This document shows, piece after piece, positions 6,775-29,162 of a stretch of DNA of 64,000 nucleotides (the first letter of the stretch is position 1; every line of letters begins with the position of its first letter). Origin of the DNA: Deltaproteobacteria bacterium HGW-Deltaproteobacteria-13. Its GTDB lineage: Bacteria > Desulfobacterota > Syntrophia > Syntrophales > Smithellaceae. The position numbers and the translations under genes are program-made. The stretch is taken from positions 1-64,000 of the forward strand of contig PHBJ01000003.1 of NCBI GenBank assembly GCA_002840555.1, read 5' to 3'. A model generated the notes under the pieces. That model did no database searches and had not been told where the DNA came from. It was given only the letters and a program-made list of their open reading frames with translations.

Positions 6775-6792
6775 TTATCCTCCACTATAAAT

Positions 6793-8343: not shown

Positions 8344-8438
8344 TTTTAAATGCCATTTTACTGCTTGAACATCTGCTATGATTCAGAGTCCAACTCCGTT
8401 TTTTGTGTAATTCCTATTTTATCTTAATTTCGTGAAGT

Positions 8439-10001: not shown

Positions 10002-10009
10002 ATCGACAA

Positions 10010-10014
10010 CCTCC
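10010..10014 (-). promoter_or_regulatory. Shine-Dalgarno GGAGG that fixes a TTG start for the secretin
   Basis: GGAGG on the minus strand sits 8 bases before TTG at 10001. The upstream ATG at 10022 has no comparable site, and its seven extra codons would contain this sequence. The TTG start also gives a compact lipoprotein signal peptide. Confidence 0.75.
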
Positions 10015-10025
10015 AATTGCATTTT

Positions 10026-10517
10026 TTATTCTTGTATGGGAATTTCCACATTGCTTCCCGCACGTTTATCGTAAATCAAAACTTTCGAAGGCGTAATCTG
10101 TTTTAATACATAGCCTTCCTCTGCCAATTGCTCCCCTGTTCTATATTCCAGACCGTTAATGACAGCCATTCTATTTTTACCTGAATCTACATAGCCGGAA
10201 TAAATTATTTTAGATAATATGCTATTGCCTTTACTGTCCTTCTCCAACCATGCTCTATATATATCTTTTTTTAAAAAAGGATTATTCCCACTATTCACTC
10301 CCGTTCGTATGGCAACATATTTATCAAAATCTGATAAATTGTTTTTACTCAAATCATTTGTTAGATCGCTTTTAAATGTTTCGATTTTTACGGAATCTGC
10401 GCTGGTTTTAACTTTTTTACTTGCAGGACCGGCAATCAAGTATGCATAAACCGCATACAAAACAAATAAAGCGGCTATCACTAAAATGATAATTTCTCTT
10501 TTTTTTAAATTAGCCAT
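10026..10517 (-). CDS. PilP-like pilus alignment protein (MshK position)
   Basis: A 163-residue single-pass protein with a basic N-terminus and one membrane helix (~8-29). A ~60-residue charged linker is followed by a small C-terminal domain (~95-163) with the PilP/GspC-like pattern INGLEYRTGEQLAEEGYVLK then VLIYDKR. Sequence similarity to PilP is only at the pattern level. The assignment rests mostly on position, between the PilO-like and secretin genes, where PilP (type IVa) or MshK (MSHA) lies. Role by analogy: connects the inner-membrane PilN/O complex to the secretin. The gene ends only 24 bases before the secretin start codon, so the two are surely co-transcribed. Confidence 0.65.
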   Translation of the reverse strand: MANLKKREIIILVIAALFVLYAVYAYLIAGPASKKVKTSADSVKIETFKSDLTNDLSKNNLSDFDKYVAIRTGVNSGNNPFLKKDIYRAWLEKDSKGNSILSKIIYSGYVDSGKNRMAVINGLEYRTGEQLAEEGYVLKQITPSKVLIYDKRAGSNVEIPIQE

Positions 10518-10535
10518 AAATACCTTTTTTATTGA

Positions 10536-11072
10536 CTATTTAAGAGCTATCCAGACTTTCATTCTAAATTCCATGGAATCGGTACCCTGCTGAATATTGA
10601 TTTCCTCTATTTTATCCAGGTATGGAACAGCTCCCAATCCTATCAGCATTTTTCGAAAATCAGAAAATTCTCCCCTCAAGACAATCTGATGCAAAAACGA
10701 TGTGGAAGAGGCCGCCGATGTGTTCAAATCCGGCGTAAATGATAAAATCTTTAACCCTGTTTTCTTCACGATCACCTGAAAATCATCCTGGAACTTCCCT
10801 GCTTCGGAACGGGCCAATGATGTTTTCTCCGGGTGGGGCAAAGTAAGCAAATTCTTATTTTTCATAGCGTTTAATAAAGATGCATAAACAGGTCCCAACT
10901 CCTTTTGTTCTTTAATTTTATAACTTAATTCTTCATTTTGCTTTATATTCTTGGAAATACTCCAGGATAAAGGAAGTATTCCCACTAAAATAACAACAAA
11001 TATAATTCCAAGGTATACTCCTAAATACAAAATACTTTTTTTATTTATATTAAAATTAATTTTTTTCATCAC
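10536..11072 (-). CDS. PilO-like pilus assembly protein (MshJ position)
   Basis: A 178-residue bitopic protein: a short cytoplasmic N-terminus, one membrane helix (~15-36), a coiled-coil stretch (~38-65, KNIKQNEELSYKIKEQKEL) and a ferredoxin-like periplasmic domain (~90-178). The domain contains the PilO-type segment LRGEFSDFRKMLIGLGAVPYL. PilO pairs with PilN in the periplasm to align the motor with the secretin. The gene lies 2 bases after the PilM-PilN fusion and 18 before the PilP-like gene, the standard M-N-O-P order. Length and topology match the family; pairwise identity is probably low. Confidence 0.78.
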   Translation of the reverse strand: MMKKINFNINKKSILYLGVYLGIIFVVILVGILPLSWSISKNIKQNEELSYKIKEQKELGPVYASLLNAMKNKNLLTLPHPEKTSLARSEAGKFQDDFQVIVKKTGLKILSFTPDLNTSAASSTSFLHQIVLRGEFSDFRKMLIGLGAVPYLDKIEEINIQQGTDSMEFRMKVWIALK

Positions 11073-11074
11073 GA

Positions 11075-12916
11075 CTAACCCGTTTTAGCGCTCAAAGTAA
11101 AATAAAGAACTTCACTTTTCTTTAAAGTTGTAATGCTGTTTTTCTGCACCGATACATTTTTAAACATTGGTGAATTTTCCAGCTTCATCACGTATTGCGT
11201 CAAGGCTGAATCAAGCTTGTCCCTTTTGTCAATAATGATTCCCTCTATGGAAACACCATCACTTGCTTCTTTTTGGGTTTTGTCGGCATCCGTTTTTGCC
11301 GTACTACTTCCCTCTGTCATTTTAACACTAAGCAGCCGTATATTTTGCGGTGTCAAATCAGAAATCTCTCCCGTCGCCGCAGTCGTCCAATACCGTTGCG
11401 CGTATTGATGAGCAATTGTTTTTTGCATTTTTACTTCGTTAGCGGCTTGAAGTACTTTATCCATAGATAGTAACGGACTATAAAGCGCTAATTCTTTTTC
11501 TAATTTTACCCCTTCTTCCTTAAGGTTTCTCCATTTCGAGCCTTGATAAAATAACGCAACCAGACAAATAATTAAAACCGCCAGAAAAGAGAAGAAAAAC
11601 AATCTATCGATTCGTTTTATGTTTATTTGTCTGTTTTTTTCGGAATAAGTAAAAATTACATTGGGAGTGCGCCTGTTATCCGACAAGGAAATACCCAGGG
11701 CAGGAGACAGCAAAATTCCCTCCTGAATGCTTAAAGATCCCGCAGAAGGATAAGATTTCTGCAGGTTGAAAGGATTAAAGAATTCTGTTTTTGTCCCTAA
11801 CTGATCACTCATGTAATCCAGCATGGAGTCATCAACATTTACTGAAGATATAATGTATATCTTTTCAACTTTCTGGTACCCGATGGAAGATGTTTTTAAA
11901 GTAAGATCCACCTGACGGGCTAATCTTTCCCAAACAGGAGAAATCATCTCCAGAATTTCTTCTTTTTTAAAATCGTGACCCGCGTCTTTATCACTTAATT
12001 TTTGCGAATCAGAACCAAGACTGAAAAGAATTTTTTTCGCCTCATCCTGCTTCAGTCTTACCTTGCCTGTTTTCTCAAGGACAGATGTAACGATTGCTTC
12101 CGCCATGCTGTTGCCGCTGCCGGTTTTGATGCCCCGGGTCATCACCAGATTATCTTTATGATAAACATCGATCCGGGAAAAATTACTGCCTATAAACAAA
12201 CTGGCGAATATTTCTTCAGTTACCGGCATCCATTTTGACCGGAAAACATTCTGAATAGCAAACGGAAAGGTTGTAATTCCGGCAAGCGTTATCCCCATAT
12301 CAGAAAACAATGCTTTAATTTTTTCAATTTCCGCTTTGGAGGCCGTGTAAGCCATGACTGAATATTTGGCATTGCCCTGATCAATAACCTCGCCGTGCAG
12401 TTCAAAATCAAAAATGTTTTTTTCTTCATCAAGGAAACCTTCTTTTTTTGCCGTCCAATAAATGACATTTTCCAGTTTATTTTTAGGCACGCGGGGAACT
12501 TTCAGAAAATGAACGTTCACTTCGCTCGATGATATTTTCGTCCAAATGTTACAATTGGCAACAGAACCGCAAAAGTCAACAATAGAAGATTTTAAAAAGG
12601 TAATGAATTCCGGCGAATCGTTAGAGATCCGCGGATCATATTTGATAATTTTCTTATCAACAAGTATCGGCCTTCCGTCAGAATGATTATCCGTCTTAAC
12701 CAGACAAATAAATTCCCGGCCGACATCAACCCCCACGGTATATTTTTTTTTATTGAAGAAACGTTTAGGCGGGATGATATTGATATTTTTTGTCTGCTTG
12801 TTTGCAGACAAAGAACTTTGTTGTTTTCCCAATGCGTTGAAAGATCCTTCATCTTCCCCGCGTATAACATTAAGAAGTTTTTCTGTTGAGTTTATGTCAT
12901 TCTTTAGATCGGGCAA
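11075..12916 (-). CDS. PilM-PilN fusion protein of the pilus inner-membrane complex
   Basis: A single 613-residue chain combining two proteins that are normally separate. Residues ~58-412 have the actin-like PilM fold: VGVDVGREFICLVK (phosphate-1 type loop), RGIKTGSGNSMAEAI and the SIQEGILLSPALGISL end. A membrane helix (~439-457) follows, then a PilN-like part with a coiled coil (LKEEGVKLEKELALY) and an ~120-residue periplasmic domain. The PilN segment that normally binds PilM in trans appears replaced by the covalent link around 413-435. MshI in some MSHA systems also joins these functions. The start is TTG at 12916-12914, supported by GAGGAG six bases upstream. First gene of the pilus operon. 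Confidence 0.85.
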   Translation of the reverse strand: MPDLKNDINSTEKLLNVIRGEDEGSFNALGKQQSSLSANKQTKNINIIPPKRFFNKKKYTVGVDVGREFICLVKTDNHSDGRPILVDKKIIKYDPRISNDSPEFITFLKSSIVDFCGSVANCNIWTKISSSEVNVHFLKVPRVPKNKLENVIYWTAKKEGFLDEEKNIFDFELHGEVIDQGNAKYSVMAYTASKAEIEKIKALFSDMGITLAGITTFPFAIQNVFRSKWMPVTEEIFASLFIGSNFSRIDVYHKDNLVMTRGIKTGSGNSMAEAIVTSVLEKTGKVRLKQDEAKKILFSLGSDSQKLSDKDAGHDFKKEEILEMISPVWERLARQVDLTLKTSSIGYQKVEKIYIISSVNVDDSMLDYMSDQLGTKTEFFNPFNLQKSYPSAGSLSIQEGILLSPALGISLSDNRRTPNVIFTYSEKNRQINIKRIDRLFFFSFLAVLIICLVALFYQGSKWRNLKEEGVKLEKELALYSPLLSMDKVLQAANEVKMQKTIAHQYAQRYWTTAATGEISDLTPQNIRLLSVKMTEGSSTAKTDADKTQKEASDGVSIEGIIIDKRDKLDSALTQYVMKLENSPMFKNVSVQKNSITTLKKSEVLYFTLSAKTG

Positions 12917-12981: not shown

Positions 12982-13235
12982 TGCAACTTTTATCAATGTT
13001 TTTAAATTATTGCAATAATTATTTTTTTATCATTGCTGTTAATTAACTCTTTTTTACAATGGTTATTTTCTTGTGAATATATAATTTTTAAGAAATTCTG
13101 TTTTCAAAAACGATCCTTAAACGAGTGCATAAGATTATGGGTCTCACGGTTTTGATTAAAGTACTTGAATGATTATTAAGTTTTTGCTATGGGAATTTTA
13201 CTTTTTTACTAAAACAATCGAGGTTATTGATCAGT

Positions 13236-14681
13236 ATGCTGATTAAAAAAAATGTTATTGTTTATTGTATCATTTTGTTATCATTTATTTTTTTCTACAA
13301 TCCCGATAAGGCGCATTCAATAGTTTCGACCGATTCCGAGAAAACAACTGATTCGATAGTTTCCCCTGATGACGAAAAAGTGCCGGATTCGGCAGTTTCT
13401 CCGGATTCTCAGGAAACATCCGATTTTATATCATCTCCCGATTCCGGAAGAATATCGAATTTGGCAATTTCTCCCAATGCCAGGAAAATACCGGATTCGA
13501 TCGTTTCTCTATCTTCCGGTTACATTATCGTCGTTGATAAGAAATATCAGAAAATATATGTTTTTCATAAAGAGGGGACTTTTTCCAAAGTATTTGAAGC
13601 GACCTGTTCGACAGGGAAAAATTCAGGATCAAAACGAGTTGCCGGCGACGCAAAAACTCCCAATGGAATTTTTTTTACGACAAAAATTCTGCGCAATCCC
13701 GGTCCTCCGGAAATTTACGGATCAATGGCCTTTCCTCTGGATTACCCGACAATCTCCGACAAAAGAGCAGGACGCAACGGCAATAACATCTGGATTCACG
13801 GCACCACAAAATCACTGCTGCCCAAACAATCCAATGGTTGTGTCGTTTTACATGACAGCGATCTGAAGCATCTTGCCAATTTTATCTATTTAAACAGAAC
13901 ACCTGTCGTTATTTCCGAATCCATAAAATGGGTCCCTCAAAGTTATGTTCTTCCTTCAAGAAATGAATTGGAAAAAATTTTAATATCCTGGAATAAGGCT
14001 TTTATTGAAAAGGATCTTAAAAAGATTGACTCTTTATACATGCAGGGTTCTGAAATCAAGGGCAAGAGACGTGAAGACCTCCATAACAAAATAAAACAAT
14101 TAAAATTTTCAAACAAACATTTTGCCTTACAGCCAAGGGATATATCCATTTTACAGGAAGATAATAATGCCGTTATTATTTTTGATCAAATCTTTGCCGC
14201 CAACGACAGTCAGTTTCAGGGATTTTATAATAAACTGATTTTAGAAAAGGCTAATAACAAATGGTATGTTGTTGATGACGCGACGACGCCCCGTGTCAGC
14301 AGTAAGAGCATCGCTTGGGTTAAGAACGAACAAAAAGAAACAAACCACAACGGCCAAAAAGAGATGCGAAATCTGGTAACGAAATGGTTAACCAGCTGGC
14401 GGTCAGGTGACATGGAAACTTACCGTAACTGTTATGCGTCAGATTTCAAGTCAAGAGAAATGGATTTGGATGCCTGGATATCTCATAAATCCGATGTCCG
14501 CCAAAACAGTAAAAATATAAAAATCAGTATTGATAATTTACAAATATCCGCAAATGAAGATATGGCCACGGCGATGTTTACTCAGCATTACAGTTCTTCG
14601 AAACTCAATAGTAAGGGCAAGAAAACACTGGAACTGAAAAAAACAGACGACGGCTGGAAAATATATCGGGAAATTATGTAA
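13236..14681 (+). CDS. Secreted L,D-transpeptidase (YkuD) with two C-terminal NTF2-like domains
   Basis: About 481 residues from ATG 13236; a TTG three codons earlier is less likely because only AGG at 13221-13223 can serve as ribosome site and it would be 3 bases away. A signal peptide (~1-28) is followed by five 12-residue repeats (31-90). The YkuD domain (~95-225) has GIFFTTKILRNPGPP, the His of IWIHGTTKS (~188) and the catalytic Cys of QSNGCVVLHDSDL (~202). Two NTF2/SnoaL-like domains follow (~240-350 and ~370-481). Family role: forms L,D-crosslinks in peptidoglycan or attaches proteins to it. The last domain is nearly duplicated in the TPR protein at 27756. The gene stands alone, divergent from the pilus operon. 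Confidence 0.87.
   Translation: MLIKKNVIVYCIILLSFIFFYNPDKAHSIVSTDSEKTTDSIVSPDDEKVPDSAVSPDSQETSDFISSPDSGRISNLAISPNARKIPDSIVSLSSGYIIVVDKKYQKIYVFHKEGTFSKVFEATCSTGKNSGSKRVAGDAKTPNGIFFTTKILRNPGPPEIYGSMAFPLDYPTISDKRAGRNGNNIWIHGTTKSLLPKQSNGCVVLHDSDLKHLANFIYLNRTPVVISESIKWVPQSYVLPSRNELEKILISWNKAFIEKDLKKIDSLYMQGSEIKGKRREDLHNKIKQLKFSNKHFALQPRDISILQEDNNAVIIFDQIFAANDSQFQGFYNKLILEKANNKWYVVDDATTPRVSSKSIAWVKNEQKETNHNGQKEMRNLVTKWLTSWRSGDMETYRNCYASDFKSREMDLDAWISHKSDVRQNSKNIKISIDNLQISANEDMATAMFTQHYSSSKLNSKGKKTLELKKTDDGWKIYREIM
13326..13505 (+). repeat. Five degenerate 36-bp tandem repeats inside the L,D-transpeptidase gene
   Basis: The encoded units follow the pattern S-P-D-S-x-K-x-P-D-S-I-V (STDSEKTTDSIV, SPDDEKVPDSAV, SPDSQETSDFIS, SPDSGRISNLAI, SPNARKIPDSIV). 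They lie between signal peptide and catalytic domain and probably form a flexible periplasmic linker whose copy number can change. Confidence 0.8.
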
Positions 14682-14902: not shown

Positions 14903-15352
14903 TTACGCAACTTCAGAAGATGCTTTTTTCTCTTTTACCGGTTTTAGCATGGCAATGACATCCATCGGACAATCAGCACGGCAGAACCCGCAACCAATAC
15001 AGGCTTTGGCGTCCTTCAGATAGGGAAAAGCGTCCACTCCTTTATTCCGGGGACGTTCCGACATGGCCAGACAACCAACAGGGCAGGCATCAACGCATAT
15101 GCCGCAGGCGATGCACGTTTCCACCGTTATCTCCGGTTTAGGCCATTCGGATCGCTTGATCATCGTACAAGCAATCCCATTGCCGTCCAGGATGCCCGAC
15201 TGTGGGCACACCTTTCCGCAGGCGCCGCATTCGATGCATAAATTTGCATCGATCGCATGAGCTTTCTTTTTTTCTCCGGTAATGGCGTCCGCCGGACAGA
15301 CTCTCATGCATGCGCCGCAGCCATTACATTTTTCTGAAATTGTATATGACAT
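14903..15352 (-). CDS. Ferredoxin-type protein with four [4Fe-4S] motifs
   Basis: A 149-residue cytoplasmic iron-sulfur protein with four CxxCxxCxxxCP motifs: CNGCGACMRVCP, CIECGACGKVCP, CIACGICVDACP and CIGCGFCRADCP. It thus carries two back-to-back two-cluster units. No other domain is present and the tail is short and charged. It lies 9 bases after the AOR gene and ends the module, so it is the likely electron partner of that AOR, passing electrons between tungstopterin and the ferredoxin or hydrogenase pool. Resemblance to the HycB/CooF-type electron-transfer subunits is by motif count only. Confidence 0.88.
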   Translation of the reverse strand: MSYTISEKCNGCGACMRVCPADAITGEKKKAHAIDANLCIECGACGKVCPQSGILDGNGIACTMIKRSEWPKPEITVETCIACGICVDACPVGCLAMSERPRNKGVDAFPYLKDAKACIGCGFCRADCPMDVIAMLKPVKEKKASSEVA

Positions 15353-15361
15353 TTTTGCCCC

Positions 15362-17317
15362 TTACTTTATTCCCAGTCTTTTCAAAGTTTCTGCCTTGGG
15401 CTTTCCCGTGGCTCTGTCCCATCCGAACTGTTCCCAGTAATCCGCTGCAAGTTTTTCCACATCCACGACTCTGCCTTTATTAGCTCCTTCCTTCTGCGGA
15501 GGATTGCCCTGCGCCCTGCGGCTGATGAAATTATTTTTCGGTTCAATCCTGTGTTTTACATTGAAATCCTGTTTTATGGTCTGAATCCGTTCACCGATCG
15601 TCATATATTCTTCAGGCGAGAACTTCCAGCCGGTCGCGGCATTAAGCCAGTCAAAAGTGGGAATCCTTTTCGCTCCGATAAAAAGGCCGAACATACACAT
15701 GCCCGCACCATTCCCCATGCTCATAAACTTGCTGCATGCGGCGGAAGCCTGGGCCTTCTCCTTGTTGACTTTGTACTTGCTTCCCTTCATAAAAAGGAGA
15801 CTTGGCCTTGGCAGGCCTTTCACGCGTTTCCAGAGCTGGAACATTTCGTAATACAAATGAGCACCGATCGTATGCCGTCCCGGTGTCGGTTCCACGCTGT
15901 AATGGACATTAAAGCCGGGATCGCCACGTCCGTCATGCATGGCCGGCTCCTGCCCTCCCGCATGAACGGTGCATGCTTCAGCTCCTCTGCCGATTTTTGC
16001 CGCGGCAACTTTCGATCCATCAGCCAGGATATCGCCAATTCCGTCCCTGTTGACCATTTTCCTGATCAGGGCAACAACAGCTTCCGTATTGCCCCATTTT
16101 AACTCCAAACCATCCGTATCTTTGTTTGTCAGAATGCCTTTTTCGTAGCATTCAATGGCGAAGGCCGCCGTCGCGCCCGCGGAAATGGTATCCATGCCCG
16201 CTCGGTTAAGAAGTTCATTTAAGTAAAAGAGACTGTCCAGATCTTCGTTCATACATAGACCGCCCAGCGCCAGGATGCTTTCATATTCGGGTTTATGGGT
16301 ATGTGAATACTTTCCTTTGGTGGCGCAGATGCCGCCGCATCCCAGCGGACACGAGTAGCAGTGATATTTTACGATTTCCGCCTTTCTAATGATGTCGGGA
16401 TTGATGGTTTTGGATTTACTCAAAGGAAAATCCTTACTGGAACCAACCCAGTTTTTAAGCGGTGAATCGCCCATCTCTGCTGACATTTGATTCATGCCGC
16501 CCGTACCCCATGTTCTCAAAATGGTCTTGTACAGGAGACCGTCCTGAGCAAACATGACCGGGGTCGCCCCCATGAAGGTTCCCATAAGAGCCAGCCCGAC
16601 ACCCGGAAGCAGGCTGAGCGGCATGGGGAAGTTGGTCCACTTGACACATTTCAGGCTCAGGCGTTTCATTTCTTCCGGATCCTGAACATTGATGCGTTGC
16701 ACTCCGTCAAGGACCACCGCTTTGAGTTTCTTCACTCCCATCACGGCGCCTAAGCCCGATCGGGCGGCGATTCTGCCCTTGTCGGTGCAGACACCTGATA
16801 TAAGAGACACCTTCTCTCCGGCCGGACCGATGACAGCCACGCCCGCCTTCTCACCGTACTGTTTTTTGAGTTTCTCTTCGGTTTCGACGGCATCTTTTCC
16901 CCAAAGATCCGCTGCATCCTTCAGGACGGCCTTACCGTTTTTTACATACAAATAAACGGGTTTGGGGCTGATGCCTTTGAAGAAAACCGCGTCATAACCG
17001 CAATGCTTGATGGCAGGGGAAAACGTGCCGCCGCAATTCGCATCGCCCCATCCTCCGGTCAGCGGTGATTTGCCGACAAGCGTCCATCGTCCGGAAAATA
17101 GACTGCCCGTACCGGTCAGAAGACCGGAACAAAAGCCCAGGATGTTTTCCGGCCCAAGCGGATCGGCGCCGGCCGGTATGCGGTTGTATAGGATATATGC
17201 TCCCAGCCCCATCCCTGACAGATATTGCTCATACACACTATCCGGTATCGCTTCCTCCGTCATGGTTCCGCTGGACAGATCCACCATGAGGATTTTTCCC
17301 ATATAAGCTTTTGTCAT
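15362..17317 (-). CDS. Aldehyde:ferredoxin oxidoreductase (tungstopterin enzyme), complete
   Basis: A 651-residue AOR that interconverts aldehydes and carboxylates using ferredoxin. The N-terminal domain has the tungstopterin-binding stretch SGRWTLVGKSPLTGGWGDAN (~76-94). The [4Fe-4S] ligands lie in HCYSCPLGCGGIC (C320, C323, C327), with the fourth Cys likely in GAGMCMFG near 546. Other family blocks include GLGAVMGVKKLKAVVLDG and ERIQTIKQDFN. All expected motifs are present, unlike the paralogue at 22985. It is 21 bases downstream of an intact Fe-alcohol dehydrogenase and 9 upstream of the ferredoxin, which suggests a path alcohol-aldehyde-acid. Substrate is not deducible; the neighbouring SCP2-like genes hint at hydrophobic substrates. 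Confidence 0.93.
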   Translation of the reverse strand: MTKAYMGKILMVDLSSGTMTEEAIPDSVYEQYLSGMGLGAYILYNRIPAGADPLGPENILGFCSGLLTGTGSLFSGRWTLVGKSPLTGGWGDANCGGTFSPAIKHCGYDAVFFKGISPKPVYLYVKNGKAVLKDAADLWGKDAVETEEKLKKQYGEKAGVAVIGPAGEKVSLISGVCTDKGRIAARSGLGAVMGVKKLKAVVLDGVQRINVQDPEEMKRLSLKCVKWTNFPMPLSLLPGVGLALMGTFMGATPVMFAQDGLLYKTILRTWGTGGMNQMSAEMGDSPLKNWVGSSKDFPLSKSKTINPDIIRKAEIVKYHCYSCPLGCGGICATKGKYSHTHKPEYESILALGGLCMNEDLDSLFYLNELLNRAGMDTISAGATAAFAIECYEKGILTNKDTDGLELKWGNTEAVVALIRKMVNRDGIGDILADGSKVAAAKIGRGAEACTVHAGGQEPAMHDGRGDPGFNVHYSVEPTPGRHTIGAHLYYEMFQLWKRVKGLPRPSLLFMKGSKYKVNKEKAQASAACSKFMSMGNGAGMCMFGLFIGAKRIPTFDWLNAATGWKFSPEEYMTIGERIQTIKQDFNVKHRIEPKNNFISRRAQGNPPQKEGANKGRVVDVEKLAADYWEQFGWDRATGKPKAETLKRLGIK

Positions 17318-17338
17318 ATAAACTCTCTCTTGAAGTAT

Positions 17339-18586
17339 TTATCCTTTTTTTATTTTGCTCCGGTCCAGAGGCTTGCCTTCCCATGCCGCCTCCAGAACCA
17401 ATAAATTATCTTCGTAGTCCGAATCCTCGGGATTATAAATGGTTGCCCCGTCAAACAGGGCCGCTTTGGCAATTTCAGGAAGAACGTCACGCGGGACCAT
17501 CTGCTTCCCATCGCGGTCTTTGACTTCCGAGAAGTACCGGGCATGTCTTCCGCCGGTGATGACGTTGAGATCCTGATTCATCTGCCGGATCAGGGAAACG
17601 ACTTTATCCGCCCGTTCCGCCCTGGGTGTTTTGAGATAGACATCCTCGCCCGCCATGGGCAGCAACAGTTCCGCGATGATGTCCCTGCGCTTATGCATAT
17701 TATATTCGAGACCGTACGGTAACAAAACCGCCATGCAGATTCCGTGGGGAACGCCGCAGACGGCGCCGGTGGCATGACCGAGATTGTGAACGATTCCGAC
17801 CATGGAATTGGAGAAAGAAATGCCGGCAAGACACGCGCCTACGGCCATGGCCAGACGCCCCTCTTTATCCGCGGGATTTTTCGTCACCATGGACAGATAT
17901 TGGTGAATCATATTGACGGCCGCCAGAGAATGAGCGTCGCTCAGCGGATTCTTCTGAAGGCAGTAATATCCTTCAACGGCGTGACTCAAGGCGTCCATGC
18001 CGGTCATGGCCGTAATGAAAGGCGGCATGGTCATGGTCATGCGGGAATCGAGAATGGAGACATTGGGTAATAAGAAATAACTGGTAAAAAGCATTTTCTG
18101 ATGCTTTTCATGATCTTTGATTACGGCAACCAGTGTTACTTCCGAACCCGTTCCCGCCGTGGTCGGTATGGCAACGAGCGGTTTCAGTCGGCGATTCAGG
18201 GCGCCGGCGCCGCTGAAAGCCATCAGGTCAGTGGCATTTTCGGAAACAACGATATTAACCCCTTTGGCCGTATCCATGACGGAACCGCCGCCGACGGCGA
18301 TAATGGCGTCACAGGCGTTATCCCGGTAAAGACCAGCCAGCTGGTTGACCACCTTTAAATCAGAGTCGGGGGGAACATTGTCGGCAATACCTCCGATCGT
18401 AACACCTTCTTTAAGTGCATTGACGACGATATCCACTAGACCGGCGGCGGCAACACCTTTATCCGTAACGATCAGCGGTTTTTTTGCTCCCATTTCGGCA
18501 AGCAGCGCCGGTATCTTTTCCAGTGCGTCGTGTCCCGCAACAATCTGGACACGGCAGCAGAATTCGTAATAATCCGGTAATATCAT
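17339..18586 (-). CDS. Iron-containing alcohol dehydrogenase, metal ligands intact
   Basis: A 415-residue member of the Fe-ADH (group III) family. The nucleotide motif GGGSVMDTAKG is present, as is PTTAGTGSE. The metal site is complete: Asp and His in TGMDALSHAVE, His in GIVHNLGHATG and His in GVPHGICMAVLLPYG. Role: NAD(P)-dependent interconversion of an alcohol and aldehyde, in the cytoplasm. It is slightly longer than the ~385-residue norm, with an insertion near the C-terminus (RHARYFSEVKDRDGKQM). It lies 18 bases after the degenerate paralogue and 21 before AOR. Confidence 0.92.
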   Translation of the reverse strand: MILPDYYEFCCRVQIVAGHDALEKIPALLAEMGAKKPLIVTDKGVAAAGLVDIVVNALKEGVTIGGIADNVPPDSDLKVVNQLAGLYRDNACDAIIAVGGGSVMDTAKGVNIVVSENATDLMAFSGAGALNRRLKPLVAIPTTAGTGSEVTLVAVIKDHEKHQKMLFTSYFLLPNVSILDSRMTMTMPPFITAMTGMDALSHAVEGYYCLQKNPLSDAHSLAAVNMIHQYLSMVTKNPADKEGRLAMAVGACLAGISFSNSMVGIVHNLGHATGAVCGVPHGICMAVLLPYGLEYNMHKRRDIIAELLLPMAGEDVYLKTPRAERADKVVSLIRQMNQDLNVITGGRHARYFSEVKDRDGKQMVPRDVLPEIAKAALFDGATIYNPEDSDYEDNLLVLEAAWEGKPLDRSKIKKG

Positions 18587-18604
18587 GGGTTACATCCTTT
18601 CCGT

Positions 18605-19765
18605 TTATGCCTTGATTGAGCTGCCGCCGACACGATCGATGATCGTGCGCAGGTAAGCCCCGTCTGGTTCCTGGTTGATGACTTCCAATACGTCGTCCAT
18701 CAGGTATTGCTGAATGCCCGCTTCCCTGATGGTTGGCGGCATTTTGCCCTTCAGCGCGGCGTAAATCTCATACGAAAATTCGTATATCTCTCTCAGAGCC
18801 GCTCCTGGCCTTCCGTCTTCCGGCATGAATACATATTTGTCGTCTCCGCCCAGTGTAAGGAGAAGGTTGGATAGGAGAGAGCGGTCCTTCTTTATTTGAT
18901 CGTCAAGAAAAGGATAAAGACACATTCCGATGATCATGCCCGGATGAACATGGACGATATTCTGAAATACTTTGCCGAGTCTGTGAAGAACGGTTTGATC
19001 TGTATTGGAAATAACACATCCCGACATCGCCACAGCATTGGCAACGGCAAGCGACGCTTTTTTATTGCAGCGTTTAGTTACGGCTTCGGCGAGATTCTCC
19101 CGGAGAAAACGCAGTGCGGTAAAAGCATAGGCATGCATGAGAGGATTTTTGCCGGGGGCAACGTCGGCCTCGAGTATGCGGCCGAATGCGGCAAAACCTG
19201 CTTCAGCAACTGCTTTTCCGTCTTTTGCCCGGGTCAGTCGCGGATCAAGAATAACGAGATCGGGCATTAAATGAACGGCGACAAATGATATTCCGTGCAG
19301 AGAGGCGTATTTCGACGTTTCCATTCCGGTTGCAGCCGCCGTCGGAATCACTACAAAAGGCCCCAGGGGATCGCGAATGGCCGTTGCCGTCGACAGTTGA
19401 CGCGCATCGGCAACTTTTTGCGAGACCGCCAGATTTACTATTTTCGCCACATCAACAATCACACCGCCGCCCAGCGCGATGATGGAATCGTATTGTCCCT
19501 TGATAAATATATCTCTGATCTGTTCGACAACATTCAGATCGGCTGTTTCCGTGACTTCATCAAAAACACCAAAGGTCATTCCCGAATCGCCGAACGCGTT
19601 TTTCAATGTCCCGATAGCACTCCCCCCCGCCAACTTGCGGCTCGTGATGATCAGGGGCTTGCAAGCGTTGAGGCCTGCTAATTCTACGGGAAGATTTTCC
19701 AGAGCTTTATTCCCGGAATTCGTCTTGAACGGACAGATAAATGCAAAACCGTTTGTAAGATCCAT
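18605..19765 (-). CDS. Degenerate iron-ADH paralogue lacking most metal ligands
   Basis: A 386-residue protein with the overall Fe-ADH fold and normal length. The nucleotide site survives in altered form (LGGGVIVDVAKIVN; the usual Ser after GGG is Val). The metal site does not: the block TGMDALSHAVE of its neighbour reads AGFAAFGRILE here, so Asp becomes Ala and His becomes Arg. The third block is VLHRLGKVFQ, and VPHG becomes VHPG. At most one of four ligands remains. The reading frame is intact and codon use is unremarkable, so it is maintained rather than decaying. It may be a structural or regulatory partner of the adjacent intact enzyme, or a binder of nucleotide and substrate. Activity as a classical Fe-ADH is unlikely. 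Confidence 0.8.
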   Translation of the reverse strand: MDLTNGFAFICPFKTNSGNKALENLPVELAGLNACKPLIITSRKLAGGSAIGTLKNAFGDSGMTFGVFDEVTETADLNVVEQIRDIFIKGQYDSIIALGGGVIVDVAKIVNLAVSQKVADARQLSTATAIRDPLGPFVVIPTAAATGMETSKYASLHGISFVAVHLMPDLVILDPRLTRAKDGKAVAEAGFAAFGRILEADVAPGKNPLMHAYAFTALRFLRENLAEAVTKRCNKKASLAVANAVAMSGCVISNTDQTVLHRLGKVFQNIVHVHPGMIIGMCLYPFLDDQIKKDRSLLSNLLLTLGGDDKYVFMPEDGRPGAALREIYEFSYEIYAALKGKMPPTIREAGIQQYLMDDVLEVINQEPDGAYLRTIIDRVGGSSIKA

Positions 19766-19780
19766 TTTATATTCCTTTCA

Positions 19781-20302
19781 TTAAATTCCCAGCAAGGTGC
19801 GTGTATAGACACCGATCCGTCCCGCGAGTTTATGGCCGAACGGCCACCATGAGGGATAACGTTTTACGGCCAGAGACGCGATGAGTTTTGGAAGAAGATA
19901 AACTTCCACGATATCAAGAATCCGGATGACCGACAGAGCATAAGGAACTTCGCCGTCCGTCATCAGGCGATTGCGGGTTGTCGCCAGAGCCGTGCTTTCC
20001 TGAAAAGACAATATTAAAAATGCGGCTTCTATATTTTTAATGACGAGACGAAGATGAATAGGACGGCATTTGAGATTGCCGCCGAAATATTTTACCTTGC
20101 CTTTTTCCTTGCCGACGACCATCCACGGACCGTTGGGAAGGGAACCCAGGGCAAATGTAAATTCATCGGGAAGCGTGTCGAATTCCTTTTTAACTTCTTT
20201 ATCGACCTTGGCCGCCGCCTGGATGGCTCTGCCTGTAAACCACAGAAATATAGCCACGTAGGCCTTCTTCAGGGGTTTCCCTCCCGCATGAATTTCCTGC
20301 AT
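19781..20302 (-). CDS. SCP2-like lipid-binding protein (probable)
   Basis: A 173-residue protein without signal peptide. A hydrophobic stretch near the N-terminus (AYVAIFLWFTGRAIQAAAKV) is followed by an SCP2-like pattern: charged beta segments (EFTFALGSLPNGPWMVVGKEKGKV is the core), then RNRLMTDGEVPYALSVIRIL and a basic end (KRYPSWWPFG). Recognition as SCP2-like is by eye and moderate. SCP2 domains hold lipids, fatty acyl chains or sterols in a hydrophobic tunnel. It opens the second AOR module, 15 bases before the degenerate Fe-ADH. The context suggests it presents a hydrophobic alcohol, aldehyde or acid to the enzymes. Confidence 0.55.
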   Translation of the reverse strand: MQEIHAGGKPLKKAYVAIFLWFTGRAIQAAAKVDKEVKKEFDTLPDEFTFALGSLPNGPWMVVGKEKGKVKYFGGNLKCRPIHLRLVIKNIEAAFLILSFQESTALATTRNRLMTDGEVPYALSVIRILDIVEVYLLPKLIASLAVKRYPSWWPFGHKLAGRIGVYTRTLLGI

Positions 20303-20602
20303 GATAAAATCCTCCCGTCATCTTCTCTTGAGAAAACAGCTCGATGGATACTGCTTTTTGAACACTGCTCATAAGGATATGACTCTAATTTGATAAGAAC
20401 TTTTTTCTTGAGATTGTTACATTATAATTGATTTGTAATTGTATGTCAAATGACTTTTATTATTTTGTGTAAAATTATCTTTTAAAGAATGACGCAACAT
20501 GAAAAATCCCGACACAAACAGAAATTTGAAGGAACCCATGAGCAATCAAGTTATACTCAAAAGTTTGATCACTCATGGGTTTCAAACAAACCGGACCCCT
20601 TC
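20303..20602 (-). other. Intergenic region between the two AOR modules, with a hairpin
   Basis: A 10-bp perfect stem (20533-20542 with 20572-20581) extended by a further imperfect 5 bp lies ~20 bases past the stop of the SCP2-like gene at 20603. It probably marks the end of the upstream module, though it lacks a good U-tract. The AT-rich 20360-20480 should hold the promoter of the downstream module; no consensus box stands out and no sigma-54 site is present. Confidence 0.5.
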
Positions 20603-21028
20603 TCACCGGCATGACATGAGTTTTGTAAATCTGGTCAGCATGATCGGGTGCGTAAACAAACCTGATAATTTAAGTTCCCTTGTTACAAACAATTTTTTTA
20701 ATACTCCCAGACCCACCTTGTCAAAATAAAAGGGCAATCCGAATTTGACATCAAGATTGGCAAGGTCAAGGAGGGTTCCCGAATCAGTCGATATGGATAC
20801 CTTTGGCTCGCCGACTTTGCCTCCGTGCACGGTCAGTTTTCCTTTTTCAAAGACCATGGTCATATCGACTTCCGCATCATGAGCATGCATATAGATATTA
20901 CCGTTTAAGGCATTAAAGTCATTTTGCCTGTAAGGCTTGGCATTCAGATTCCCTTTGATGATGTCGGCAATCATTACAGGCAGACCTCCTTCATCCTCAA
21001 TCCCGGGTGAATAATTGATTTGAGCCAT
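20603..21028 (-). CDS. SCP2-like sterol/lipid carrier domain protein
   Basis: A 141-residue soluble protein. The order of elements is that of a free-standing SCP2-like domain: an N-terminal helix, then beta strands (NGNIYMHAHDAEVDMTMVFE, KGKLTVHGGKV), then STDSGTLLDLANLDVKFG and a hydrophobic C-terminal helix (VLKKLFVTRELKLSGLFTHP). No catalytic motif is visible. It is the last gene of the first AOR module, 44 bases after an intact Fe-ADH. Likely role is binding or delivery of a hydrophobic intermediate. It resembles the 173-residue protein at 19781 in outline, which suggests that both modules carry such a carrier. Confidence 0.68.
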   Translation of the reverse strand: MAQINYSPGIEDEGGLPVMIADIIKGNLNAKPYRQNDFNALNGNIYMHAHDAEVDMTMVFEKGKLTVHGGKVGEPKVSISTDSGTLLDLANLDVKFGLPFYFDKVGLGVLKKLFVTRELKLSGLFTHPIMLTRFTKLMSCR

Positions 21029-21072
21029 AGCTCCTCCTTTATTTTTCTCAGTTTAAGATATCTAAATCCAAA

Positions 21073-22236
21073 TTACCATGCCTGCTTGATGACGCCGAGA
21101 ACCTCTTCCGCGTCGAAAACCGGCTTGGGATTATAGACAATCGCCCCATCAGATAAACTATTTTCAGCCACTTGAGCCAGACTGTCTTCCGGAACACCAA
21201 CCTCACTCAGTTTCTGCGGCACTCCCATTTTCCTGGTCAATGCGGTTATGGCCGCGGCCACGGCCTCTCCCGAATTTTCATCGTTGATGTCTTTCATATC
21301 CAGACCCATGGCTTTAGCAATCAGCGTGTACCGGTCCCCGCAAACATCCGCGTTGAACCGGACGACATGCGGCAGAAAAATGCTGTTGGCCAATCCGTGC
21401 GGCACTTTGAACATGCCTCCCACCGTATGGGCCAACGCATGCACCATGGCCACCTGACCATTGTTAAAAGCTATTCCGGCCATCGTGGATGCCAACAACT
21501 GCTGCCCGCGGGCAAAAAGGTCTTTCCCGTTTTCCACGCATTTCGGGAGATATTCCGTAATCAATTGGATAGCGCTAATCGCCATCGCATCGGCCACCGG
21601 CTGACACTGCGTTGCGTGCATCGATTCCAGGGCATGACTGAAAGCATCCATGCCGGTTGTGGCTGTCAACATGGGCGGCAAGCCTTCCGTCATGGTCGGA
21701 TCGAGAATGCCGACATTCGGTATAATATTATCATCGCAGTAAGGGTGCTTTTGGTGGTTGACCTGGTCTTTGATCACCGCAAAGTAAGTGACCTCGCTTC
21801 CCGTTCCCGCTGTCGTGGGAATAACGATGTGAGGCGTTTGCGGACGAGAAAGACATTGCTGCCCTTTATAGTCCTCAATTTTTCCCCCTTCTTTCAGAAC
21901 AATGGCAATGCCTTTGGTCGTATCGATTACGCTTCCGCCGCCGACACTGACCAGCACATCGGCGCCCTTGCTCTTTGCGATCCCGGACACTTCGTTGATG
22001 ATGCGAAGATCGGAATCCTGAATACATCCGTCAAACGTTCCCACCAGTTTTTTCCCAAGCACCTTTTCCACTCGTTCAGCCAGTCCGGCATTAACCACTC
22101 CCTTGTCCGTAACCAAAAAGGCCTTGCTGCATTTAAGACTGACTATTTCCTGTTCCACTTCGTTTATCGAGTTTTCTCCATATACCAATCTCGTCGGATT
22201 ACGATAGATGAAGTTGAGATCCCTGTCGTACGCCAT
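21073..22236 (-). CDS. Iron-containing alcohol dehydrogenase, metal ligands intact
   Basis: A 387-residue Fe-ADH from ATG 22236. A longer frame reaches 22326, but GGGGAGG lies 6 bases before 22236 and the extra 30 residues are basic and unlike the family, so I reject the longer start. The protein has GGGSVIDTTKG, PTTAGTGSE, TGMDAFSHALE, MVHALAHTVGG and KVPHGLANSIFLPHVV, so nucleotide site and all four metal ligands are present. Family members oxidise or reduce primary alcohols and aldehydes with NAD(P). It lies between the SCP2 gene (22333) and the SCP2-like gene (20603), downstream of the shortened AOR. Confidence 0.92.
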   Translation of the reverse strand: MAYDRDLNFIYRNPTRLVYGENSINEVEQEIVSLKCSKAFLVTDKGVVNAGLAERVEKVLGKKLVGTFDGCIQDSDLRIINEVSGIAKSKGADVLVSVGGGSVIDTTKGIAIVLKEGGKIEDYKGQQCLSRPQTPHIVIPTTAGTGSEVTYFAVIKDQVNHQKHPYCDDNIIPNVGILDPTMTEGLPPMLTATTGMDAFSHALESMHATQCQPVADAMAISAIQLITEYLPKCVENGKDLFARGQQLLASTMAGIAFNNGQVAMVHALAHTVGGMFKVPHGLANSIFLPHVVRFNADVCGDRYTLIAKAMGLDMKDINDENSGEAVAAAITALTRKMGVPQKLSEVGVPEDSLAQVAENSLSDGAIVYNPKPVFDAEEVLGVIKQAW

Positions 22237-22283
22237 ATGATGCCTCCCCTTCCGAATTAATTTCTTTGTTTTTCTTAAATATG

Positions 22284-22317
22284 AGCAAGGCGGCCCATTG
22301 ATACAAGCCGCCTTGCT
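22284..22317 (-). terminator. Intercistronic hairpin upstream of the Fe-ADH
   Basis: A perfect 11-bp GC-rich stem (22284-22294 with 22307-22317) encloses 12 bases. It sits between the SCP2 gene and the Fe-ADH ribosome site. The minus-strand side lacks a continuous U-tract, so it may be a partial terminator or an RNA-processing/stability element that sets expression between the genes. Confidence 0.5.
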
Positions 22318-22332
22318 TGATTGCACTGATTT

Positions 22333-22908
22333 TTACGTGATATTGAATTCCTTGACCAAATCCTGAACCACCTTCCTGAAGGATTCAATTTGTTCGGGAG
22401 TCAGTTCATCCTGATAGACACCTCCCACTTCGCCGACGGTTTCCACAATACGTACGGCGGCCTTCACAGCCTTGACAATCGTGGGAAGGTCTCCTTTCAG
22501 TTTGAGTTTCCCCTGCATCATACCTTTAACCACATCCAGCTGTTTTCTACTCACCGCTAACCAGCGCTCAATGGTGCCGCCAATGATAAAATTACCCGGA
22601 TCCCCTGCTGCCGTGGACGGAATGTATCGTATGGACTTGCATTCGCCATCGTGCCAGAGATCCATTTTTACATAAATATCCTGATCGACGCCGAAGGCAG
22701 GGTTCTTGAGTAAATGGATGACGATCGGATTTTCCCAGTTCGGCAGCGCCAATGCTTTGTATTTTTCATCATTTTGAAGCTTTTTTTCCCACTCTCCCAC
22801 CCATTCAGGTGAAAAAAGAACGAAAGGCCTGGGCGAGTTCGCAATTCTCTCCTGCGTTACTTTTTTAAAGGCCTCTTCCCACTCCGGTGTTCCATACGTA
22901 TACGGCAT
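22333..22908 (-). CDS. SCP2 sterol-binding domain protein
   Basis: A 191-residue soluble protein. The C-terminal ~110 residues follow the SCP2 pattern: DIYVKMDLWHDGECKSIRYI, then NFIIGGTIERWLAVSRKQLD, then GMMQGKLKLKGDLPTIVKAV with the characteristic low-complexity KLKLKGD strand before the last helix. The N-terminal 70 residues (RPFVLFSPEWVGEWEKKLQN) are a helical extension. SCP2 domains bind fatty acyl or sterol-like molecules without catalysis. It sits between the shortened AOR and an intact Fe-ADH, so handling of a hydrophobic substrate for them is the simplest reading. This is the clearest of the three SCP2-type proteins in the window. Confidence 0.8.
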   Translation of the reverse strand: MPYTYGTPEWEEAFKKVTQERIANSPRPFVLFSPEWVGEWEKKLQNDEKYKALALPNWENPIVIHLLKNPAFGVDQDIYVKMDLWHDGECKSIRYIPSTAAGDPGNFIIGGTIERWLAVSRKQLDVVKGMMQGKLKLKGDLPTIVKAVKAAVRIVETVGEVGGVYQDELTPEQIESFRKVVQDLVKEFNIT

Positions 22909-22984
22909 CTTTCTTTCTCCTTTTCTAATTTATTTTATTCTTATGTCGTCAGATTAAAATCTTTCCGACAAAAAAATCATCAGA

Positions 22985-24772
22985 TCACACAGCACCATGA
23001 AGTTTTTGGGCAAGCTCATTAAGACCCGCGCCTTCCAGCACGTCTTTCCTGGGCCAACCGTTCGAATCAATGCCTCTGATCTCATAATACTCTTTCAACA
23101 TTCTATCGATTTCCGGAACCGATCCGACGGCACCGCCCTCTTCCAGCGGTTTCATGACATTAGGCGGCAGCCGGTCATCGGCCGCCCTTGAACCGAGGAG
23201 ATTGGTTATGCCGCGCATCAGAAGCCATATTTTTGCGCCCATTTTTATCAGATCGTCCTGCGTGAAATCCCAACCGGTAACCACATGAATCATCTCCGCG
23301 AATTCCTTGACTGAGATACAATCATACACAAAGACACATAAACAGGCCGACGTGCACGGCGCCCCTATATTTTGGGACAGAACGGCCATTTCCGCCTTGC
23401 CGTCGCTGGAGGGTCCTTCATAATCCGCTTTAAACCCGGCGTCTTCATGATCGGTCAGGCCCTGCTCGATCATATGGCTCATATGCTGAAGATGGCAGGC
23501 GCCGCGGTAGCCCACTGCGTATTCCAATCCCATGCCATGAAATCCACGGGGATCATGAGCCGGCAGTTCAAGACCCTTGACCGCCACGACATATTCTTCA
23601 GCCCCTTTACCGATCTTCTGCGCGGCCTTGGCGGAGCCCTCCGCCAGCACATTTCCAATTCCCTCACGCTTCGCGATTTTCTCAACCATCTTGAGAGCCG
23701 CTTCAATATTACCCCAGGTCAGTTCGATTCCATCCGTATCCGCCGTGGTAAGAATACCCTGGTCGAAGCACTGCATGGCAAAGGCAATCGTCGAACCGCA
23801 GGAAATCGTATCGACACCATACTGGTTGCAGATTTCGTTGGCTTTGATGATACCCTCGAAATTATCGTTTTCCATGAACGTGCCGAAAGTACAGCAGGTC
23901 TCGTATTCCGGCCCCGGTCCCTCGTCTGTCTTGTACGGGCCGTCGTCCACCTTGACCACCCGCTTGCAGGCAATCGGACACGCATAGCAGGCATGCACCT
24001 TGGTCAGGTATTGCTCGGTCATGGCCGGACCGCCGATTTTTGTATAGCCGTCAAATTCACCCCTGGTCCAGTTGCGGATCGGCACATCTCCGGTCATCAT
24101 GCCCGGATCCATGGAAGAGGCGGTGCCCATGCTCTTCATGACCTGGGCAAACTGGTTGTCCTTGATTTTCTCCAGCAGACTCGCTCTGAGCGCTTTGTAT
24201 TCTTCAGGCAATGCCGGCAATACCTTGCCTGTACCGGTAACCACAACAGCTTTGAGCATTTTGGAGCCCATGACCGCGCCCATGCCGGTTCTGCCGATGT
24301 AGTGAGCTTTATCGTTGGCAATCGCCGCAAAACGCACCAGGTTCTCTCCGGCGGGTCCGATCACCAGAACTTTTGGCTTGCGTTTATCCCCGTGCCGTTC
24401 TTTCAATATGTCGGTTACCTCGTAAACCGGCTTGCCCCACAGATCCGAGGCATCAAGAAGCTCCACGCTGTCATCATTGATCAAAAGATAAACCGGTTTA
24501 TCCGATTTGCCTTCGATAAAAATTCCGTCATATCCGGCAAATTTAAGTTCCGGACCAAAATCCAACGGACCGGTCATAATAATCAGTGGATTTTCAGCCG
24601 ATAGGGCATCTGATTCAGGTGAGAAACGGTTGAGAAAGAGATATGCAGCCAAACCGCCTCCGCCCAAATAATTTTTCAGAAGAGCATCGTCCAGAGGAAT
24701 CTTTTGAATCTTTCCTTCGGAAAGATTAACTTCAAGCATCCTTTTCGCATATCCTGACTCACAATTTTCCAT
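22985..24772 (-). CDS. AOR-family protein with the tungstopterin-binding segment missing
   Basis: A 595-residue AOR paralogue with most family blocks: MLEVNLSEGKIQKIPLD, GRTGMGAVMGSKMLKAVVV, the [4Fe-4S] motif ACYACPIACK and HDPRGFHGMGLEYAVGYRG. Near the N-terminus TGPL (67-70) runs directly into DFGPELKFAGYDG (71-83). The complete AOR at 15362 has 31 residues at this place, including the SGR...KSPLTG pterin-binding stretch, where this protein has one. The frame is intact across the junction, and the hexamer GGTCCG occurs on both sides of it. Either the protein no longer binds tungstopterin normally, or ~90 bases were lost in assembly or recent deletion. It opens the first module; a 687-base gap precedes it. 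Confidence 0.85.
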   Translation of the reverse strand: MENCESGYAKRMLEVNLSEGKIQKIPLDDALLKNYLGGGGLAAYLFLNRFSPESDALSAENPLIIMTGPLDFGPELKFAGYDGIFIEGKSDKPVYLLINDDSVELLDASDLWGKPVYEVTDILKERHGDKRKPKVLVIGPAGENLVRFAAIANDKAHYIGRTGMGAVMGSKMLKAVVVTGTGKVLPALPEEYKALRASLLEKIKDNQFAQVMKSMGTASSMDPGMMTGDVPIRNWTRGEFDGYTKIGGPAMTEQYLTKVHACYACPIACKRVVKVDDGPYKTDEGPGPEYETCCTFGTFMENDNFEGIIKANEICNQYGVDTISCGSTIAFAMQCFDQGILTTADTDGIELTWGNIEAALKMVEKIAKREGIGNVLAEGSAKAAQKIGKGAEEYVVAVKGLELPAHDPRGFHGMGLEYAVGYRGACHLQHMSHMIEQGLTDHEDAGFKADYEGPSSDGKAEMAVLSQNIGAPCTSACLCVFVYDCISVKEFAEMIHVVTGWDFTQDDLIKMGAKIWLLMRGITNLLGSRAADDRLPPNVMKPLEEGGAVGSVPEIDRMLKEYYEIRGIDSNGWPRKDVLEGAGLNELAQKLHGAV

Positions 24773-27755: not shown

Positions 27756-29162
27756 ATGAAGAAATTCTTATTTACTTTATCGCTGATACTTTTATTATTT
27801 GCTCCATCAGTTTTTGCTGAAACTGTTGCCGACATCCCTGCCGGAACGGCGGAAGAATATTACAACCGCGGCAATGCTTTTGAGAAACAAGGCAACCTGA
27901 CCCAGGCCATCTCTGATTATACCAACGCCATCAGAGTATATTCCAAACATGCAAAAGCCTATTACAACCGCGGGAAAGCCAACGCAAAACAGGGCAACCT
28001 CTCTCAGGCCATTGCCGACTATAATAAAGCGATCGAGATCAATCCTAAATATACAGAAGCTTATTATAACCTTGGAAATGCCTATGAAAAACAGAATAAC
28101 CTCGCGCAAGCCATAGCCAGCTACAACAAAGCCATTGAGAATAACCCCAAATATGCGGCAGCCTATTGCAACCGCGGAAATGCTTATCAAGCTTTGGGCA
28201 ATCTTCAGCAAGCCGTCGCTGATTATAATAAGGCGATAGAAATAAAACCCGACTTCGCAGGAGCCTACTCCAATAGAGGAAATGCCTACCAGACCCAGGG
28301 CAATCTTGGGCAGGCTATTGCCGATTACAATAAAGCCATAACCCTGAAACCTGACTTCGCGGGATTCTATGCCAACAGAGGGAATATCTATCAGACGCAA
28401 GGCAATCTTGGGCAAGCAATCGCCGATTACAATAAAGCCATAGAAAAAAATCCTAATGACAGTTCATCTATTTACAACAGGGGCCTCGCTTATTACGGCA
28501 TAGAACAATACGGAAATTCTTTGGCGGATTACTCAAAAGCCATCAAACAAAATCCCAGTAAGGAAGCTTATGACGATTTTATCAAATATTTCCCCGCGAA
28601 GAAAAACTCCGACACGGGAAATGTCAGAAACGCAATCGTTCTGGCCTTCGAAGAAAAAATAGGCAGGAAAACACCTGTTGCCGTCGCGGCTCCCGCTGCG
28701 CCATCTGTTGATGTTGCAGCCCCTGTTGCCGCGCCTGTTGCCGCAACTGTTGCCGCCCCTGCCGCCGCCGCTGTCAGCATTACGAATTTAGCCCGGGCGG
28801 ACGCTAAACAAAACGAGACAAAATCATCCCCGAAAGAGGAAGTGCGGAATCTGGTAACAAAATGGCTGACCAGCTGGCGATCAGGCGATATGAAAACTTA
28901 TCGCAATTGTTATGATGAATCAGAATTCCAGTCAAAAGGAATGAACCTGGACGCTTGGATATCCTATAAAGCCAATGTGCGCAAGAACAGTAAAAATATA
29001 CAAATCAAAATTGACAATCTGCAAATTTCAGCGGATGAAAGTATTGCCAAGGCAGTATTTACTCAGGAGTACAAATCTTCCATGTTACAGGATAAAGGCA
29101 AAAAAACACTGGAGCTGAGAAAAATAGGCGGCGAATGGAAAATATATAAAGAATATATGTAG
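27756..29162 (+). CDS. Exported TPR protein with C-terminal NTF2-like domain
   Basis: A 468-residue protein with a cleavable signal peptide (~1-21, ending VFA). About seven TPR units (~30-270) share the repeat core YYNRGNAxxxQGNLxQAIADYNKAI, and the middle units are almost identical at the DNA level. A Val/Ala/Pro-rich linker (~305-345) leads to a ~105-residue NTF2-like domain that is about two-thirds identical to the C-terminal domain of the L,D-transpeptidase at 13236. It should act in the periplasm as a protein-protein scaffold. The shared domain suggests that both proteins bind the same partner or site. The gene is flanked by terminators on both sides and so is a single unit. Confidence 0.85.
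   Translation: MKKFLFTLSLILLLFAPSVFAETVADIPAGTAEEYYNRGNAFEKQGNLTQAISDYTNAIRVYSKHAKAYYNRGKANAKQGNLSQAIADYNKAIEINPKYTEAYYNLGNAYEKQNNLAQAIASYNKAIENNPKYAAAYCNRGNAYQALGNLQQAVADYNKAIEIKPDFAGAYSNRGNAYQTQGNLGQAIADYNKAITLKPDFAGFYANRGNIYQTQGNLGQAIADYNKAIEKNPNDSSSIYNRGLAYYGIEQYGNSLADYSKAIKQNPSKEAYDDFIKYFPAKKNSDTGNVRNAIVLAFEEKIGRKTPVAVAAPAAPSVDVAAPVAAPVAATVAAPAAAAVSITNLARADAKQNETKSSPKEEVRNLVTKWLTSWRSGDMKTYRNCYDESEFQSKGMNLDAWISYKANVRKNSKNIQIKIDNLQISADESIAKAVFTQEYKSSMLQDKGKKTLELRKIGGEWKIYKEYM

Follow-up and report, generated by a model that had tools for sequence, protein, structure and literature searches.

Why would genes for putative lipid carriers stand next to genes for tungsten-type aldehyde:ferredoxin oxidoreductases (AORs) and iron-dependent alcohol dehydrogenases (Fe-ADHs), and would two such sets lying side by side work together? 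These questions are raised by a locus in a Smithella-like genome of 3.5 Mb (29 contigs), the nearest named loci of which come from Smithella sp. and Syntrophaceae bins. Within the window, the whole 64,000-nucleotide stretch that was analysed, nine genes follow one another on the minus strand from 24772 to 14903, in two groups with 300 bp between them. An earlier note on this DNA had read them as two same-strand modules of AOR, Fe-ADH and SCP2-like genes, one with a four-cluster ferredoxin, and this description agrees with our analysis: all nine open reading frames are present on that strand, and Pfam backs every gene call except that of protein X, with two AORs (AFOR_N plus AFOR_C), three Fe-ADHs, two SCP2 proteins and one ferredoxin.

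The two modules and their proteins

Module 1 (24772-20603) runs in the order AOR1, SCP2-A, Fe-ADH (ADH1), SCP2-B, and module 2 (20302-14903) in the order protein X, ADH2a, ADH2b, AOR2, ferredoxin. Module 2 is preceded by a perfect match to a sigma-70-like promoter (TTGACA-17-TATAAT, 20421..20449, minus strand), identified by its consensus only, and the two modules are therefore probably separate transcription units; the sigma-54 promoter consensus showed no enrichment, with no match close to the modules. Beside the modules lie type IV pilus/type II secretion genes (T2SSE ATPase, secretin and PilM-like; window positions 5071-12916), and the proteins encoded on the two flanks (13227-14681 and 27756-29162) have in common a Cds6 C-terminal NTF2-like domain, joined in one of them to an L,D-transpeptidase and in the other to TPR repeats.

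AOR1 (595 aa; 22985..24772) and AOR2 (15362..17317) both match AFOR_N and AFOR_C with E below 1e-59, and both keep the 4Fe-4S ligands CxxCxxxC...C (CYACPIAC...C in AOR1, CYSCPLGC...C in AOR2) and the PEYE motif, which holds the Tyr-Glu pair of aldehyde-oxidising AORs. They fall in different subclades (33% between the two), and the nearest solved structure to AOR1 is the AOR of P. furiosus; both presumably carry a tungsten cofactor. In the DxxGxC cofactor motif Asn or Thr replaces Asp in both proteins, so that they may not be broad-range AORs. A Class II benzoyl-CoA reductase (BamB-like) identity was considered and rejected, since both score higher against P. furiosus AOR than against BamB and the Tyr-Glu pair is retained. 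AOR2, which is intact, shares with its relatives a hydrophobic insertion (about residues 228-270) that is absent from AOR1 and from the aligned solved AORs, and that is a candidate lipid- or carrier-docking element. The partner of AOR2 is a conserved four-[4Fe-4S] ferredoxin (14903..15352), whose four CxxCxxCxxxC motifs are found in 14 of 14 relatives and whose gene adjoins AOR2 in most close relatives.

The three remaining small proteins bear on the lipid-carrier part of the proposal. SCP2 protein A (scpA, 191 aa; 22333..22908), a putative lipid carrier, and SCP2 protein B (scpB, 141 aa; 20603..21028) score 24.5 and 24.7 bits against PF02036, modestly above its gathering score of 21.3; the assignment is robust, in that the same family is matched by 35 of 35 scpA relatives and 29 of 33 scpB relatives, and the scpB model (mean pLDDT 87) has UbiJ-SCP2 as its best fold match. 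Protein X (173 aa; 19781..20302) has no Pfam match, and its AlphaFold2 model (mean pLDDT 76) matches almost exclusively SCP2 structures in Foldseek (E from 1.8e-5), among them the dodecanol-bound SCP2 domain of the alkylsulfatase SdsA1 (2cfz). Protein X is thus predicted to have an SCP2 fold; its relatives give weak SCP2/Alkyl_sulf_C matches, its terminal helices are long and it contains hydrophobic segments. Profile-profile comparison with hhalign gave low probabilities both for protein X against scpB and for scpA against scpB. The SCP2-like genes of the earlier note are accordingly borne out, A and B by PF02036 and protein X by its predicted fold, and a mismatch with SCP2, which the note had named as one of two refuting outcomes, did not arise.

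Recurrence of the gene set and its neighbours

AOR, Fe-ADH and SCP2 genes form a recurrent genomic unit, linked far beyond chance. A scan of named genomes with the AOR1 alignment gave 80 loci, in which an SCP2 gene lies no more than 5 kb from the AOR1 relative in 58, an Fe-ADH gene in 56 and both in 55; the order AOR-scpA-ADH-scpB is found in 41 of the 80, and several of the remaining loci stop at contig edges. The linkage extends over Desulfobacterota, Spirochaetes (L087, L127), Nitrospirae (L099) and Actinomycetota-type bins (L161 and, by inference, L160); SCP2 genes are missing from the surroundings of many AOR1 relatives, among them relatives in Chloroflexota. The association that the earlier note had proposed is therefore not peculiar to the source genome, and the other refuting outcome named in the note did not arise either.

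Other lineages carry the same ingredients in other forms. In three loci from other families (L066, L067, L082), ADH and AOR flank an SCP2 gene of a different subtype, which makes an independent ADH-SCP2-AOR arrangement. Across 24 other genomes of the class, with about 81 AORs and the source genome left out, 5 of 36 SCP2 matches have an AOR at a distance of about 5 kb or less, as against 0.5 expected (P about 1e-4). Of 395 genomes of the phylum, 24 encode protein X, and in 23 of these 24 loci an ADH2b-type Fe-ADH gene comes after it, either directly or, in Syntrophales, past ADH2a; an AOR from one of three subclades is often nearby, and the SCP2 subtypes each go with an ADH/AOR partner of their own. 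At two loci of a distant family (L250:6205-9912 and L251:5614-9977) AOR, protein X and Fe-ADH genes are directly adjacent on one strand, and long mechanical open reading frames run across the AOR and X genes there, a possible fusion.

The genes that surround these units fit lipid-like substrates. On contig C13 (L043:329-6475 and L043:10997-12586), a second module-1 copy has downstream of it, on the same strand, genes for a CoA-transferase, an SDR, an AMP-binding ligase and a second SDR, and at L056 an AMP-ligase gene also comes after module 1. The C13 copy has in addition a divergent sigma-54 activator gene upstream of its AOR. In a related genus (L125:5434-8857 and L061:3398-4375), genes for a UbiA prenyltransferase, a cyclopropane-fatty-acid synthase and a metallo-beta-lactamase-fold protein directly precede module 1. 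Three stand-alone X-ADH pairs (L261:2275-9433, L255:3231-8035 and L256:2948-10824) lie near isoprenoid-type genes, namely FPP synthase, DXS and IspH-UbiA; HMG-CoA reductase; and geranylgeranyl-reductase-like and CrtI-like proteins. An exclusively isoprenoid role was set aside, as other X-ADH loci have no isoprenoid genes and the count was made post hoc; we keep it as a lead.

Altered enzymes and the relation between the modules

The earlier note had observed that each module contains one altered enzyme, and had taken this as a sign that the two modules may work as one complex. The observation is literally correct, but these are two different kinds of alteration, the defect of AOR1 being specific to one assembly and that of ADH2a being conserved. 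Alignment with FucO shows the Asp, His, His, His metal ligands intact in ADH1 (21073..22236, with a probable ATG start at 22236 rather than the listed GTG at 22326) and in ADH2b (17339..18586), both assigned as Fe-dependent alcohol dehydrogenases (PF00465/PF25137 for ADH1, Pfam likewise for ADH2b). ADH2a (18605..19765) has lost three of the four ligands, the equivalents of Asp196, His200 and His277 in FucO numbering. This loss is common to all aligned module-2 loci (five loci plus FucO in the alignment), L085 has a comparable degenerate ADH, and dN/dS is 0.15-0.20 (0.20 against the Smithella orthologue). Judged by its sequence, ADH2a is a conserved, maintained pseudo-enzyme: it is an Fe-ADH homologue that would not be expected to count among the active group III enzymes.

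In AOR1, 30 residues are missing from the cofactor-binding AFOR_N domain. The gap covers the segment VGTLLPGTSRFAVCARSPQTGFWGIGTCGGT, which every aligned relative has; it is confined to the source assembly, with the same gap in no aligned relative, and AOR1 is intact in the Smithella locus L083, which has the same nine-gene order. Abutting the gap is a 79-bp stretch (24483..24561, minus strand) that is 100% identical to the paralogue on contig C13, while outside this stretch the two copies are about 78-79% identical. The C13 paralogue, in turn, has 42 bp perfectly duplicated in tandem within its AOR gene (L043:10448-10531), at the site that corresponds to the AOR1 gap, and the duplicated unit is the first 42 bp of the shared 79-bp stretch. 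Because both AOR copies are abnormal at one shared sequence, the gap is probably the scar of recombination between the copies or of mis-assembly. That the shortened AOR1 is instead a genuinely repurposed, cofactor-poor subunit partnering AOR2 would agree with its in-frame reading frame and with a dN/dS of 0.07, which gives no sign of relaxed selection or of excess amino-acid change. We nevertheless regard such a subunit as highly improbable: the gap occurs in the source genome only, the 42-bp duplication and the identical 79 bp are a signature of recombination or mis-assembly, and the lost segment aligns with Arg75, Asn92 and Gly94 of the Aromatoleum AOR, which bind the tungsten cofactor (PMC10413684).

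With AOR1 intact in L083 and its gap specific to one assembly, the argument from altered enzymes to a single complex of modules 1 and 2 falls away, and neither the promoter match nor the occurrence of each module alone elsewhere favours one complex. A looser relation between the modules is supported by their shared chromosomal setting. L083, from another Smithella, repeats the nine genes without a change in their order; L084 and L085 combine module 1 with an X-ADH-AOR set, arranged differently, and in L066/L069 an AOR2-ferredoxin pair stands beside an ADH-SCP2-AOR set. Five genomes of the genus use one chromosomal slot for varying combinations of modules (modules 1 and 2, x-adh-AOR' with module 1, or x-adh-AOR' alone) between constant flanks, with L,D-transpeptidase/pilM genes on one side and TPR/methyltransferase/radical-SAM genes on the other. 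This shared slot supports a functional relation, and simple exchange of modules is also possible. The modules could also be unrelated AOR/ADH operons that came to share the slot by insertion or duplication and have no joint pathway, a serious contender to which we give somewhat less credence; it is compatible with our best explanation for each module taken separately. It draws on the solitary occurrences of each module, on the promoter match and gap between them and on the differing contents of the slot in congeners, and it has to contend with side-by-side pairing in L083, L084, L085 and, with other parts, L066/L069, which is above what independent insertion would be expected to produce.

A proposed pathway for hydrophobic substrates and its known counterparts

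The reading that we favour, with some confidence, is that the modules encode AOR-ADH couples for hydrophobic substrates, the intermediates of which are held by SCP2 carriers; we infer the carrier role, the substrate class, the direction and any complex from the genes. The Fe-ADH would interconvert alcohol and aldehyde with NAD(H), and the tungsten-type AOR aldehyde and free acid with ferredoxin, module 2 having a dedicated four-cluster ferredoxin for this. The SCP2-fold proteins would hold the alcohol, aldehyde or acid, which is poorly soluble and might otherwise be membrane-bound or aggregated, and pass it between ADH and AOR, by analogy with UbiJ. Run in the oxidative direction in a syntroph, which seems likelier than acid-to-alcohol reduction, the couple would deliver NADH together with reduced ferredoxin, and conversion of the acid to a CoA thioester could follow, as the CoA-transferase and AMP-ligase genes after the paralogous module would allow. 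ADH2a would probably serve ADH2b as a structural or regulatory partner. Because the unit is recurrent and its carriers have genuine SCP2 folds, the pathway for poorly soluble alcohols, aldehydes and acids that the earlier note had suggested is the most economical reading. A bacterial AOR is known to oxidise C9-C10 aldehydes (PMC10816221). Against the carrier model stand the modest SCP2 scores in the window, the many aldehydes that known AORs convert with no carrier, the Asn or Thr in place of Asp in the DxxGxC motif and the many AOR1 relatives that lack an SCP2 gene nearby.

The SCP2-fold proteins may instead be structural subunits or membrane adaptors of the AOR and ADH, the substrates of which could then be ordinary. 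The long terminal helices and hydrophobic segments of protein X, the hydrophobic insertion of AOR2 and the pairing of each SCP2 subtype with its own ADH/AOR partner, as for subunits, would suit such a role. We think it unlikely, as the SCP2 fold is typically lipid-binding, the use of several SCP2 subtypes in such operons favours the binding property, and lipid and acyl-CoA genes lie nearby. General aldehyde detoxification by a broad-range AOR and an ADH, with no special hydrophobic substrate, has in its favour the broad substrate ranges of AORs and the detoxification role proposed for them (PMC10816221); it leaves the conserved SCP2 genes unexplained and seems to us improbable. An extended form of the carrier pathway is more speculative, and we put it forward tentatively: a soluble metabolon of AOR, an active/inactive Fe-ADH pair, polyferredoxin and lipid carriers that would oxidise or synthesise long-chain or prenyl alcohols with the aldehyde unreleased, as a family widespread in anaerobic syntrophs and sulfate reducers.

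We know of no substrate for many clades of the tungsten AOR family, and the link to lipid carriers would point to a class of substrates that can be tested (long-chain or isoprenoid alcohols, aldehydes and acids) for AOR clades of uncultured anaerobes. If the carrier pathway is correct, SCP2 proteins serve anaerobic redox enzymes, and the modules may supply enzymes for reducing fatty substrates from acid to alcohol. The conserved degenerate Fe-ADH beside an active one, a pseudo-enzyme pair, is of interest on its own.

The enzyme families and the AOR-ADH couple are known, and the systematic SCP2 carriers and the degenerate ADH appear to be undescribed; in line with the earlier note, which had not recognised the arrangement, no description of AOR with SCP2 was found in the open-licence papers searched. 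The closest precedent is the AOR-ADH pathway by which acetogens and Thermoanaerobacter reduce carboxylic acids (PMC10816221): there, too, acid, aldehyde and alcohol are interconverted in consecutive steps by an AOR and an alcohol dehydrogenase that draw on ferredoxin and NAD(P)H, but we found no description of SCP2 in it, whereas here SCP2 genes lie in conserved operons and module 2 adds a degenerate ADH. AorABC of Aromatoleum aromaticum (PMC6365974, PMC10413684) likewise combines an AOR catalytic subunit with a small ferredoxin-like subunit of four [4Fe-4S] clusters; in contrast, module 2 has no gene for an FAD subunit (AorC), AorA is absent among the best 60 solved-structure matches of the module-2 ferredoxin, and AOR2 is closer by score to P. 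furiosus AOR than to AorB. For the carriers, the nearest parallel is UbiJ, the SCP2 protein proposed to hold hydrophobic ubiquinone intermediates in the Ubi metabolon (PMC9499169), which serves an enzyme set and is the best fold match of scpB; its enzymes and pathway are unrelated to those of the modules, in which no UbiK-like partner was seen. Finally, the alkylsulfatases SdsA1 and Pisa1 also place an SCP2-like domain, matched in fold here, beside an enzyme for long alkyl chains, but there the domain is fused to a hydrolase, whereas in the two modules separate SCP2 proteins accompany redox enzymes.
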